Assembly (NCBI GenBank): GCA_016873095.1
Contig: VGYC01000040.1
Location: forward strand, 1 to 44,613
Length of the DNA stretch: 44,613 nt
Origin: Planctomycetota bacterium
Lineage (GTDB): Bacteria; Planctomycetota; Planctomycetia; Gemmatales; Gemmataceae
Direction: 5' to 3'
Shown: one piece after another, positions 31,706 to 36,931 of the stretch
How the letters are laid out: every line of letters begins with the position of its first letter
How positions within the stretch are numbered: the first letter of the stretch is position 1
The notes under the pieces: model-generated
Database searches by the model: none
What the model saw: only the letters and a program-made list of their open reading frames with translations
Told to the model about the DNA's origin: nothing
Position numbers and translations under genes: made by a program

Positions 31706-32524
31706 CTACCAGCGTGTGGCCACGGCCACTTTCTTGTCCGGAAAGACGGGAATCTTGGCCAGGTCGAGGGTGGTGAAGATGGGAATTACCTCTGGCCGCA
31801 CACGGCACATGGCCATGCTGCTGCCCCAGCCTTTCAGCCACACGTAGACCTCGCCGAGCATCTTGACGCCGCTGGTCGATACGCGCCGAAGATTCTTGCA
31901 ATCGAGGAGCACGCGCAGGTTGTTGCGGCTCAGGTTGTCGCACAGCTCTTTCTTGATGAGTGCGATCTCGCCCTCATCAACCATCTGCGTGTCGTTGAAA
32001 CGAATCGTGGTGATGCCCCCCTCCTTGCCGATGCGCAGCCGCCCCTTGACCATTCCCTTCATGGCTTGCAGCTGATCGATGATGGAAGCCGCCGCCTCCG
32101 AAGCGTTCGTGGTCTGGTGGAAGGCGTCCGCCTCTTCGTCGAAGAGTTCCTGCTCGGCAGTCACGTCGAGGCTGCGGGCCGCCCACTCCTCGAGATCCCG
32201 CCCGGACAGCGGTTTCTCGCGAAACTGAACCACAAATTCGAGGGGCCCGACGTCGAGTTTGTCCCCCGGATGCATGGGCCACTCCTGGCCGGGTGGCACC
32301 AGGTCGCCGTTGAGCGTCGTGGTGAAACCGCTGGCCATGTCGCGAACATAGATCTTTCGCTCGCGCACAACCAGAGCACAATGTTCCTCCCCAACGCCTT
32401 CGACCTTTGAGCGAAGCTGACACATCCGGGACGTGCCGATCATGAACAGATCGACCGTGATAGAGATCGGCATGCCCTTGTGCTTGCCCCTGGCAACGAT
32501 CAAATAGAACTTGAAGGCTTTCAT
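31706..32524 (-). CDS. FHA domain fused to a STAS domain
   Basis: A 272-residue protein. The N-terminal half is an FHA domain (about 5-105), with SRMCQLR, EEHCALVV, TTLNGDLV and GDKLDVGPLEFVV at the expected positions; such domains bind phosphothreonine. A charged linker (about 110-160) follows. The C-terminal half (about 165-270) has the strand-helix pattern and NLRVLLDCKNLRRVSTSGVKML of a STAS domain, the fold of anti-sigma antagonists, where Ser at the LRRVSTSGV site is the usual phosphorylation point. A protein that reads Thr phosphorylation and acts as an anti-anti-sigma factor would connect the Ser/Thr kinases with sigma control (inference). ATG 32524 is preferred; the promoter is at 32654-32682. 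Confidence 0.85.
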   Translation of the reverse strand: MKAFKFYLIVARGKHKGMPISITVDLFMIGTSRMCQLRSKVEGVGEEHCALVVRERKIYVRDMASGFTTTLNGDLVPPGQEWPMHPGDKLDVGPLEFVVQFREKPLSGRDLEEWAARSLDVTAEQELFDEEADAFHQTTNASEAAASIIDQLQAMKGMVKGRLRIGKEGGITTIRFNDTQMVDEGEIALIKKELCDNLSRNNLRVLLDCKNLRRVSTSGVKMLGEVYVWLKGWGSSMAMCRVRPEVIPIFTTLDLAKIPVFPDKKVAVATRW

Positions 32525-32941
32525 CGCGCAAGTTCCCGAGAGGGATTGCAATTTCCGGCAATGGCCTGAACGGGGCGCGGCTGCGAGTTTGCGAGTCTTG
32601 CAGCCGGGATCCAGGCTCCCGGGCGAACGTGCTGTCTGGCTGGGTTAGCTTGAATTCTACAGTGAGTCGACATGCGATACAATCTGCATTTGCTCGATTC
32701 ACCATTATTATTTCCAGAATCGCCGGCTACCTGGCGGGGAGGCGGTTTCGACGCCAATCCCGCAAGTGCTTGAAAAAAAATGTGTTTTGCGGCCGCGCCT
32801 GTCACTGCTTTCGCTGAACCACCAAAACTTTGGAGTCTTTGTCATCCGCGCTGGATTGATGCCCCAGCACCAGCTATGCGATTGCCGCGAAGATGACTTG
32901 GATGACACGTGCGCAGCGAGCCATTTTCAGCGAGCGACCTC
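32525..32941. other. Intergenic region upstream of the FHA-STAS gene
   Basis: 417 bases. It contains the FHA-STAS promoter (32654-32682) near its middle. The rest has no protein-like frame; an A8 run at 32775-32782 follows the promoter region on the other side. The minus-strand gene beyond ends at 32942. Confidence 0.5.
32654..32682 (-). promoter_or_regulatory. Candidate sigma-70 promoter of the FHA-STAS gene
   Basis: On the minus strand TTGTAT (32682-32677), a 17-base spacer and TAGAAT (32659-32654). It is the best complete -35/-10 pair seen in the window, about 130 bases before the ATG at 32524. Confidence 0.55.
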
Positions 32942-34900
32942 TTATCTTGAACTGGCTGACTTGCGAATGCAGTACAGATGCTCATAGGTCCGAAGGAATA
33001 CGTCCGCGCCGGCGACGGCCAGTGCCGCGTAAGTCGGCTCGCAAATTTCATTGCGCGACAGCAACTTGAACTTGGGACCGGCGGCAAGGACAAACGTCGT
33101 TCCCTCCAGGCTGGTCACGTACAGTCGGTCGTTTGCCAGCAAAAGCGAGCCCCAGAGTTGCTCGCCGAGACGTTCCTTCCAGATTGTCTTTCCGGACGGC
33201 GCGTCGAGGCAGGCCACGAAGCCAGGGGCGTCGGCGATGTACAGCCGGCCCTGGTGCATGACGCCGCTGCCGATGCGCTGCGGGTTCTTGCCGGCTTGCT
33301 GCCACGCCCTGTGCGAGTCGGTGACGTCGCCGTTCCCGCCGGGCCGGACGGCAAGCAAGGGGCCGTTATGCCCGGAGATGCCGACGACCAGATTGCCCTC
33401 GTCGCCGACGACCGGCATGGCGTAAATCTCGTTGCCGAGTCCACGGCAGGTCCAGATCGCCTTGCCGGTGGCTGGCTCGTAAGCCTTGAACATGCCCTCG
33501 CCGCCGATGCGCTCGCCCGGCAGCGGCATGATCAGTTCGTCGCGCCCGCCGGAGCGGACGATGACCGGCGTGCTCCAGGATCCGAAGACGGGGCTGTTGA
33601 TTGCTCTCTCGTCGCTTTTCCACACCGTCTTGCCGGTGCGCTTGTCGAGGGCAATCAAGAACGAGGAAGGCTCGCCTGGCCCATGAAAGAGGATGAGCAG
33701 ATTGCCATACAGGATCGGACTTGAGCCATTGCCCCAGCGGCTCAGGATCGGGCCGAGATCGCGATGCCAGAGTTTCTTGCCCTCGAAGTCATAAGCGACG
33801 ACGCCGGCCGAAAAGAAATGAGCATAGACCGCCTGTCCGTCGGTCACCGGCGATGCGGAGCATGGCGGATTCTGCTTGTGCGACGTCTCCACGACCGTGC
33901 AGGGCACTTCGCGCTGCCACAGTTTCTTGCCGTCCTTGCGGTCAAAGGCGATGAGGGCGCGGCGCTTGCCGCCGTCCAGCGCCTGCGTGAGAAACACCTT
34001 GTCGCCCCAGACGATCGGCGTTGAGTTTCCCGGCGCCGGCAAGGCAACCTTCCAGCGAACATTCTTTTTCGCATCCCACGTGAGTGGGATGTCGCCAGCC
34101 GCGACGATGCCACGGCCATCCGGCCCGCGCCAGGCCGTCCAGTTTGCGGTCGAGTGTGTGACGGCCTTCACCAGTGCCTCTTCCTGGTCCCAGTAGCTGG
34201 GCAGGCTGTCCCAGGGGTTGGCGCCGTCGCGATCGGTGATATAGATGTAGCCGAGGTTTTTCTCGTCCGCCTCGCGCCAGAATCGCTTCATCTGCTGGCC
34301 GGCGCCGACCTTGTAGGCCAAGTAGAAAATGCGCGCGGCATGGCGGGCCGTCCACTCCGGCAGTGCGAGGCCCGTCGACAAACCAACGCCCTCGAACAGG
34401 CAGGCGATATCGCAGGCCGGCCGGGTGAAGTACTCCTCGACGCACACGGTCCCCGGATTCGTGACGACGAACTTCAGCCCGTGCTTCTTGCGAACGTGCT
34501 GATACAGCGCCGCGTAATACTCGACCTTGTCGGCGCTGCTGGCTTGCTCGTCAAAGAAGATGCCCTGGATTCCGGGATACATCTGCGTCCAGCGATCGAC
34601 GTCCTTCATCACGTCGGCCAGCGGCCGCTTGGCGTACGACGTGGAGACGTAACCGATGAGCGACAGCTGCGCCTGGACCGCACGCTTGCAAATGGATGTG
34701 TAATGGACATCGACCTTTTCGCCCGGACCGCTGGCGGGATTGACGATTACCAGCAACGACTTCCGCGCCGGCGAAGCCAGCAGCCTGTCCCAGTCTTTGA
34801 GCCCCTGGCCTGCCGGATAGAAATAGGCGGGCACGAGGATGCGTGGAGCGGCATCCGCCATGGCCGGGATCAGAAAGAACATGACGAGGCTTGGCCGCAT
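32942..34900 (-). CDS. Secreted Spherulin4-like domain fused to a PQQ-type beta-propeller
   Basis: A 652-residue protein. A signal peptide (about 1-18) is followed by a TIM-barrel-like domain (about 20-240) resembling the Spherulation-specific family 4: ILVPAYFYPAG near the start, IVNPASGPG, IGYVSTSYAKRPL, DVDRWTQMYPGIQGIFFDEQ and the C-terminal FLAYK segment. Related proteins hydrolyse galactosamine-containing polysaccharides. From about 255 on, a beta-propeller of the PQQ/BamB type has blades ending in W-motifs (DGKKLWQREV, EGKKLWHRDL, TGKTVWKSDE, TGKAIWTCRG, SGKTIWKERL). ATG 34900 is chosen; the frame continues to 35032. It probably acts at the cell surface. Catalysis was not verified residue by residue. 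Confidence 0.82.
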   Translation of the reverse strand: MRPSLVMFFLIPAMADAAPRILVPAYFYPAGQGLKDWDRLLASPARKSLLVIVNPASGPGEKVDVHYTSICKRAVQAQLSLIGYVSTSYAKRPLADVMKDVDRWTQMYPGIQGIFFDEQASSADKVEYYAALYQHVRKKHGLKFVVTNPGTVCVEEYFTRPACDIACLFEGVGLSTGLALPEWTARHAARIFYLAYKVGAGQQMKRFWREADEKNLGYIYITDRDGANPWDSLPSYWDQEEALVKAVTHSTANWTAWRGPDGRGIVAAGDIPLTWDAKKNVRWKVALPAPGNSTPIVWGDKVFLTQALDGGKRRALIAFDRKDGKKLWQREVPCTVVETSHKQNPPCSASPVTDGQAVYAHFFSAGVVAYDFEGKKLWHRDLGPILSRWGNGSSPILYGNLLILFHGPGEPSSFLIALDKRTGKTVWKSDERAINSPVFGSWSTPVIVRSGGRDELIMPLPGERIGGEGMFKAYEPATGKAIWTCRGLGNEIYAMPVVGDEGNLVVGISGHNGPLLAVRPGGNGDVTDSHRAWQQAGKNPQRIGSGVMHQGRLYIADAPGFVACLDAPSGKTIWKERLGEQLWGSLLLANDRLYVTSLEGTTFVLAAGPKFKLLSRNEICEPTYAALAVAGADVFLRTYEHLYCIRKSASSR

Positions 34901-34980: not shown

Positions 34981-36906
34981 CTACAGCCCGCTGCCGCGGG
35001 CAATGATGCTGACTTCGCTGCTGGGGACCCACATGTCCAGTTGCAGGTAGTCGGCGCCGACGCTGAGCCCGGCCGAGGACAGCACTGCCTTTGCGGGCAG
35101 GCGGACTCCCTGCGGATCGATCAGCGCCAGCAGACTCGCCATCGCCAGGTGCAACTCGATCCTGCGTGCCGACGGCGCTTGCCGCTGGAAGGCCTTGATT
35201 GCTGTCGACCCCTGCAAGCCCGGCTTGTCGCCGGCGAGGTTCCTCAGTGTCTCATTCAACAAGTCAAGGTCCGAGCCGAAGAAAGCGACCACTTGCTTGC
35301 CGTGCGGCACCAGGCGGAGGTTATTCCATTCGGGACCGAGCAATTGCTTCATGAACGGCCTGGCACGCTGCACGTCGGCGTCGGATAGCTGGATCCGGAC
35401 CACGTCCACGACGCGCCCCTGGCGCTTCTCGGCCTCGGCGATGTACGCGAACGTCGGTCGGATGGAACGCAACACTTCAGCATAGAGCAGTTCCTTGCGG
35501 CGTGCGGCGGCGGCCTCTGCAATCTGCCGATACAACCGATCGGCACGGCGTGAAACCTCCAGCTCGGCCGCTCTTCGAGCCTTGTCCAGTCGCGGCAGGA
35601 CGGGCTCGCCGAGCAATCGAAGCTTCAGCGTCGCTGACTCGCGGACATGGTACTGACGGTCGCTCAGGTCGCGGATCAGTTGCTCGACATCGACGGCGGG
35701 CTTGCCTTTCTCCTTCGGATTCAACTCCAATCCCTTGCCGTCGGCGATCTTGGCGAGCGTGCGCAGATCGGCGAGGAACTTGCCCGCATCGTCGGTATCG
35801 AGGATGGCGACGCCGCTCATGAGGCCTTGCTCGCTCTCTGCGGGGTTCTTGTAGATCGCCAGCCGGCTGCCGCGCAGTCGCGTCCAGACCTCTGTGAAGA
35901 CACCCACCACCACGGGCTGATCGACGGCCGCCAGAATGCGGCGATCCCGAACCAGTGTCTTCAGGACCCAGTCGAACAGCACCTTGGCGATGATCCCAGT
36001 CTTGCGGCCGTCACCCTGGCTGGCCTGCACGGCGAGGACGTTGCCGTCGGGCAGGCCTCGCAGATTCGCGGCCGACTGGGCGGCGCCGAGCGTCTTCAGA
36101 AACTCCTTGCCGCCTTTCTTTTCATTGCCGAGGACGGCGAGCAAGCTGACGCCGAGGCCCCGGTCCACGCGCAGCGTGCCGAGCCCGTAACGCACATCCG
36201 TGAGCGCGTCGAGGAAGTGGTCGATGACCTGTTGCTCGGCGTTATCGTCGAGCTTTCCGAACTGACTGCGCAGGTTGTCGATGAAGCTGCCCCACTCCTT
36301 GCCCATGGCGCGTGGGTTGACGTGAATCACCACGTCGGAGTCGTTGACCGATTTCTTCTGAGCGGCCGACAGTTCCTTGCGTCCCGCCTTGCCGTCCAGG
36401 ACACGGGCAATCGCCTCCCTGGTATTGCCGATGTACAGGTGCTTGCCGCGTGCGAAGAAAAACTTGCCGAAGTTCGTGCCTTTGCCTTCTTCCATCTTGC
36501 CTGCCTTGAGCTGGCCATTCTCGAAACCAAAATTGCGAGCCAGCGCGTCGATTTCCGTGAAGGGCAAGATGAGGACGAGGAACCGATCCAGATTGGGCAG
36601 GTTGAGGAGGTCCTGTCCCTTCTCGGGCGGCGCGAGGACAATGGCCGTCGGACTCTTGAGATCGATGCCGCCGTTGATTCCCAGGAATTGCAGAGCCAGC
36701 AACCAGAGCTGCGACGGCCGAAAGAGATTCTGCATGCCCGCTTCGTTCACGAACTCGTCGCCGCGCTTCGACAGCTCGGCGACATTGCGAATGGCGATCC
36801 CCGCCGTCGCGTCCGCCGGCACCAGGTCGAGCACGGTCTGCGCCTGGGCAGTGCCGGCGACGAGGGCGAGAATCGACGCCGCAAGCAGAAGTCGCGCTGG
36901 CTTCAT
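34981..36906 (-). CDS. Large secreted protein with HEAT-like segment, unknown function
   Basis: A 641-residue protein with a signal peptide (KPARLLLAASILALVAGTAQA). The N-terminal 340 residues repeat a lipoprotein-like alpha/beta pattern (VLDLVPADATAGIAIRNVAEL, IVLAPPEKGQDLLNL) reminiscent of DUF3352-type proteins. A segment around 420-475 (LIRDLSDRQYHVRESATLKL, then EPVLPRLDKARRAAELEVS) matches a HEAT-like unit common in planctomycete proteins. No catalytic motif was recognised. ATG 36906 follows the small basic gene, whose coding frame lies just upstream; the open frame extends to 37224 but that part is the shadow of the next gene. It is in the same direction as that gene and 25 bases from its end. 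Confidence 0.78.
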   Translation of the reverse strand: MKPARLLLAASILALVAGTAQAQTVLDLVPADATAGIAIRNVAELSKRGDEFVNEAGMQNLFRPSQLWLLALQFLGINGGIDLKSPTAIVLAPPEKGQDLLNLPNLDRFLVLILPFTEIDALARNFGFENGQLKAGKMEEGKGTNFGKFFFARGKHLYIGNTREAIARVLDGKAGRKELSAAQKKSVNDSDVVIHVNPRAMGKEWGSFIDNLRSQFGKLDDNAEQQVIDHFLDALTDVRYGLGTLRVDRGLGVSLLAVLGNEKKGGKEFLKTLGAAQSAANLRGLPDGNVLAVQASQGDGRKTGIIAKVLFDWVLKTLVRDRRILAAVDQPVVVGVFTEVWTRLRGSRLAIYKNPAESEQGLMSGVAILDTDDAGKFLADLRTLAKIADGKGLELNPKEKGKPAVDVEQLIRDLSDRQYHVRESATLKLRLLGEPVLPRLDKARRAAELEVSRRADRLYRQIAEAAAARRKELLYAEVLRSIRPTFAYIAEAEKRQGRVVDVVRIQLSDADVQRARPFMKQLLGPEWNNLRLVPHGKQVVAFFGSDLDLLNETLRNLAGDKPGLQGSTAIKAFQRQAPSARRIELHLAMASLLALIDPQGVRLPAKAVLSSAGLSVGADYLQLDMWVPSSEVSIIARGSGL

Positions 36907-36931
36907 GTTCGACTCCGTAAAGGATCGCTCA

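Follow-up and report, generated by a model that had tools for sequence, protein, structure and literature searches.

The galactosaminidase families are made up mostly of bacterial enzymes, very few of which have been characterised, and for GH135 the fungal Sph3 is the sole enzyme named in the part of PMC12054363 available to us. The same part of that source states that Sph3 acts specifically on galactosaminogalactan in its fully acetylated form, gives E222 as its general acid/base and prints its nucleophile as Asp196. We take Asp196 to be a misprint and did not retain it, because D166A is the catalytically inactive variant in PMC8546845 (likewise available in part) and D166 aligns with a conserved aspartate, D117, of the domain described here. 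GH191, GH166 (PelA) and GH114 galactosaminidases have the general barrel and the acid pair in common with that domain, as far as the available part of PMC12054363 goes, but are clearly further from it than GH135.

Here we describe a protein encoded in a 44,613-nucleotide stretch of planctomycete DNA, the whole of which we refer to as the window. It shares its TIM barrel with Sph3 of Aspergillus (GH135, PF12138; 5c5g, 5d6t), but the two domains are only about 24–25% identical, Sph3 is fungal whereas the window protein is bacterial, and the solved Sph3 chain is a single domain whereas the window protein adds a propeller after the barrel. Stand-alone bacterial "spherulation-specific family 4" proteins, such as those of Streptomyces plasmids and one on contig C118 of genome G433, have the Spherulin4 domain in common with it but lack the propeller. 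Conversely, the BamB/YxaL-like propellers secreted in this order, such as G453 C36 and G433 C211, are 68–73% identical over the whole propeller and open with the same NWxAWRGP start, but they carry their own signal peptide in front and no enzyme domain. The two domains are known and usually separate, and their combination appears to be new in the collections searched. A narrow check of the GH135 literature touching planctomycetes or beta-propellers, including the available parts of PMC5352709 and PMC7922503, found no description of the fusion.

Layout of the gene and the Spherulin4 domain

The sequence-only reading had assigned a Spherulin4-like domain fused to a PQQ propeller to positions 32942–34900, and both the bounds, which are exact, and the fusion itself were borne out. 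A single minus-strand frame of 652 residues (32942..34900), opening with an ATG at 34900 and with GGGAGCC just 5′ of it, holds a putative signal peptide, a Spherulin4 (GH135-like) domain and a PQQ/BamB-like beta-propeller. Residues 1–18 (34847..34900) form a probable Sec signal peptide, judged by eye without a predictor, and from this signal-peptide-like N-terminus the fusion protein is probably secreted. The Spherulin4 domain, a Sph3-type TIM barrel, covers residues 20–240 (34181..34843), where the Pfam family PF12138 scores 147.2 bits against a cut-off of 30.2 (E 7.8e-43), and the remainder of the protein matches PQQ_2 with 98.7 bits against a cut-off of 27.6 (E 5.2e-28). Both matches are far beyond chance and uphold the assignment of the N-terminal part to spherulation-specific family 4 and of the C-terminal part to a propeller. 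The junction between the end of the Spherulin4 domain and the mature N-terminus of the propeller (NWxAWRGP) lies at residues 245–253 (34142..34168), and the BamB/YxaL-like beta-propeller extends over residues 253–652 (32945..34144), all of these features being on the minus strand. Scans for repeats and for promoters and terminators gave nothing useful.

The kinship to enzymes acting on galactosamine polysaccharides, also claimed from the sequence, holds for GH135 both by sequence and by fold, Sph3 being the best solved structure in either comparison. With the window protein as query, Sph3 (5c5g/5d6t) was matched at E 3.5e-15 and BamB at E 2e-7, and a profile of 33 relatives (A2) matched Sph3 at E 8.7e-32. 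Modelled alone, the Spherulin4 domain reached a pLDDT of 90.8; Foldseek placed the two Sph3 entries on top (E 1.5e-15 and 2.0e-15; next 9.2e-6), and VIA-align superposed the model on 5d6t/5c5g with a Z of 27.3 and 2.1 Å over 224 residues (next Z 16.5), placing it among the Sph3-type TIM barrels. The VIA-align rows at Z 16.5 and below include GH191 (Z about 15–16) and PelA (about 14), and no GH114 structure is among the matches listed, an absence that carries no weight.

In the alignments from both the window query and the profile, D116, E117 and E172 of the 5c5g chain face D117 and E118 (34547..34552, minus strand) and E170 (34391..34393, minus strand) of the window protein. An offset of 50, derived from the chain ranges, converts the chain numbering to D166, E167 and E222 of the entry, so that D117 and E170 occupy the positions of D166 and E222. 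In Sph3, E167, the counterpart of E118, has a role as well. The domain also retains the motifs NPG and TD..NPWD, and what it presents is a Sph3-type barrel with all three acids, not a non-enzymatic fold or a barrel that has lost them. Among 46 Spherulin4 ORFs, the residue equivalent to D117 is present in 46, that of E118 in 40 and that of E170 in 43. Three relatives (L012 and L013 of G216, and L069 of G504) lack both E118 and E170 and are, to judge from these positions, candidate non-catalytic versions; L011, L059 and L093 lack E118.

Proposed function

We propose, with a probability of roughly 0.55, that the protein is a secreted, lineage-specific two-domain fusion whose GH135-type barrel cuts a GalNAc-rich exopolysaccharide while the propeller keeps it attached to a partner or to a matrix. 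The sequence-only suggestion of a surface enzyme that the propeller anchors or regulates is plausible. We infer its activity, substrate and site of secretion and the role of its propeller as follows. The signal peptide would lead to export of the two-domain protein; the Sph3-like TIM barrel would most likely be a retaining enzyme that cleaves exopolysaccharide rich in alpha-1,4-linked N-acetylgalactosamine, the roles of nucleophile and acid/base falling, by homology, to D117 and E170; and the propeller, being a common secreted scaffold in the order, would most likely tether the enzyme to a partner, surface or matrix component. PelG (PF16933) was not found in the protein's own genome, which is 95.5% complete, and no endogenous Pel-type substrate is therefore evident; because of this the target may be a polymer of another organism.

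A distinctly less probable but still serious alternative is that the Spherulin4 domain does work as a glycosidase but cuts a different glycan, whether an amino-sugar polymer of another kind or a polysaccharide from the environment, which would be expected of a divergent bacterial relative of GH135. The identity to Sph3 of only about 24–25% and the lack of PelG in the genome are consistent with this, as are the contexts in which relatives occur (GH10/PA14, cadherin, RTX, RHS, dockerin and PKD, and phage tail modules), whose variety suggests varied substrates, whereas the retention of the three acids and of the NPG and TD..NPWD motifs argues against it. More speculatively, the propeller might dock the GH135 domain on a specific surface or biofilm component, so that fungi or other bacteria are stripped of their galactosamine-rich exopolysaccharide; we consider this rather doubtful, but if true, GH135 would here be put to use outside polymer biosynthesis.

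We regard it as improbable that the Spherulin4 domain is a non-catalytic, lectin-like binding module carried by the propeller. Inactive hydrolases may serve as lectins, according to the part of PMC8546845 available to us, and the relatives that have lost E118 and E170 (L012, L013 and L069) or E118 (L011, L059 and L093) would fit such a fate. In the Spherulin4 tree, moreover, the branch of the window protein is long, at 0.53 versus 0.27 and 0.37 in its two nearest kin, and a shift in function is therefore possible. The window protein itself, however, keeps D117, E118 and E170.

The preferred reading of a polysaccharide-cleaving enzyme may also be set beside the phage relatives of the domain. 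Viral sequences gave no relative when scanned with the Spherulin4 domain of the window protein by itself, but did so, in phage contigs, when scanned with the Spherulin4 profile. L130 and L135 (IMG/VR) are phage contigs with Spherulin4 domains, and the L130 protein combines this domain with a minor tail domain match (phrog_1885). In the Rothia phage Spartoi, a Spherulin4 gene (L137:5788-6876) lies between the minor tail genes and lysin A. A search of PHROGs gave little beyond one minor tail match. The minor tail match in L130 and the position of the Spartoi gene suggest that these are phage polysaccharide depolymerases, and a depolymerase role would fit the Spherulin4 family. As a bacterial GH135 domain that has all known acids and is naturally fused to a scaffold, the protein would be a reasonable choice when looking for enzymes that dissolve biofilms; the fusion is also a small case study of enzyme-scaffold joining and leaves the understanding of the families unchanged.

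Rarity and origin of the fusion

Of 392 genomes drawn from the phylum, 12 have Spherulin4 domains, as do 62 of 397 drawn from the class, 12 of the 102 genomes of the order and, in two other classes, 4 of 397 and 5 of 154 genomes. All these draws overlap; pooled, they give 85 distinct Spherulin4 places, the window's counted, and 84 of these lie above the curated cut-off (a count from the tables). Among the 85 places in these same-phylum draws, the Spherulin4 domain of the window alone carries a propeller. Twelve of the 84 other places are in frames of at least 600 residues, and Pfam scans of all 12 showed no PQQ family; the other 72 frames, below 600 residues, are too short for both entire domains, and a few of them stop at contig edges. 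Similarly, PQQ_2 was detected in the window's ORF only when 46 Spherulin4 ORFs, including that of the window, were scanned with Pfam. Approached from the propeller side, no Spherulin4 domain was seen in 39 loci around propeller relatives, a contig scan with the whole protein as query returned propellers only, and among the order matches listed none extends over both domains except that to the fusion gene itself. Other extracellular partners of Spherulin4 do occur, namely dockerin, cadherin with RTX, PKD with beta-helix, GH10 with PA14, and RHS. A giant protein at L143:8076-13706 (minus strand) contains PA14, GH10 and Spherulin4, and in L143-L146, L148 and L149 (G717, G720, G746, G705 and G544) Spherulin4 is repeatedly found with cadherin and sometimes with RHS or RTX repeats.

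The fusion, which we read as lineage-specific, is present in one genome only among those searched. In G433, which belongs to a related genus of the same family, the halves are apart: the Spherulin4 protein (57% identity) is encoded on C118, the propeller (72%) on C211. The window joins G433 and G442 in a 3-row clade of the Spherulin4 tree (support 100/98), and G433 together with six genomes of genus g295 in an 8-row clade of the propeller tree (support 100/97), outside which a propeller paralogue from its own genome (C55, 62% identity) falls. The propeller relatives begin with a signal peptide followed by A-D/E-NWPAWRGP, whereas in the window protein the end of the Spherulin4 domain is followed by NWTAWRGP; the reading frame continues through the join, and what has been lost is the tail of Spherulin4 together with the signal peptide of the propeller, the latter exactly up to the mature start. 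GC3 is 0.83 and 0.80 in the two halves, and GC and GC3 are similar to those of the neighbouring genes. Because the junction fits the mature start of the propeller and GC and GC3 are alike, the sequence favours a real gene fusion over a misassembly.

That an assembly error has joined two genes would be conceivable in a draft of 548 contigs (95.5% complete, 3.3% contamination), the more so as no other searched genome has the fusion and neither flank is syntenic with any of the relatives examined, the window genes sharing no gene order with 24 loci that hold the separate halves or homologues of the flanking genes. We nevertheless consider this very unlikely, given an in-frame join exactly where the propeller signal peptide ends, the matching GC3 of the halves, nearest relatives of both halves in the same family, and a genome that has no second, stand-alone copy of Spherulin4.

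The propeller and the genomic surroundings

The full-length model (18 rows) has a mean pLDDT of 78.7 and a pTM of 0.63, with a confident propeller; residues 193–255 are below pLDDT 50 and poorly placed, so that the relative placement of the two domains in it is to be read with caution. In structural comparison the propeller model comes closest to YxaL (Z 36.8), followed by BamB (about 32–35), and Foldseek likewise gives BamB/YxaL, which places it in the PQQ_2/BamB-like fold. The NCBIfam cut-offs for BamB equivalogs were missed (TIGR03300, 63.5 bits against 285.2; NF008351, 41.4 against 423), as was that for PQQ alcohol dehydrogenase (TIGR03075, 46.8 bits against 480.05). The model thus shows a scaffold of BamB/YxaL-like fold, and PQQ binding is without support. 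A bifunctional protein with a PQQ-dependent dehydrogenase as its propeller is hardly credible, as the weak TIGR03075 match lies far under its cut-off and the best folds are BamB and YxaL. The sequence-only reading had described the propeller as usual in secreted planctomycete proteins, with which it agrees that all 102 genomes of the order match the whole protein at E <= 1e-20, most with tens of first-look candidates; among the order matches listed, nearly all cover the propeller half.

Around Spherulin4 loci with flanks of mostly 1.5 kb, a propeller was nearby in 2 of 60 (L056 and L066). When the flanks were extended to as much as 8 kb, or less on shorter contigs, this was so in 3 of 41 loci (L169, L171 and L189) versus 0 of 19 controls; L189 (G742) had been drawn as a control and, since it holds a Spherulin4 gene, was counted on the test side. 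We rejected such adjacency as a sign of coupling, as the three loci are each arranged in another way and so slight a difference from the controls carries no meaning, and neither the 60-locus nor the 41-locus set contains a conserved Spherulin4-propeller neighbourhood that would support functional coupling.

Upstream of the fusion gene by 80 bases and on the same strand lies a gene (34981-36912) for a protein of 643 residues without a Pfam or NCBIfam match, relatives of which are found in 12 of the 102 genomes of the order, its own counted. About 390 bases downstream, again on the same strand, a gene at 31706-32551 encodes a protein that combines FHA with STAS domains and has close relatives in 30 of these 102 genomes, its own likewise counted.
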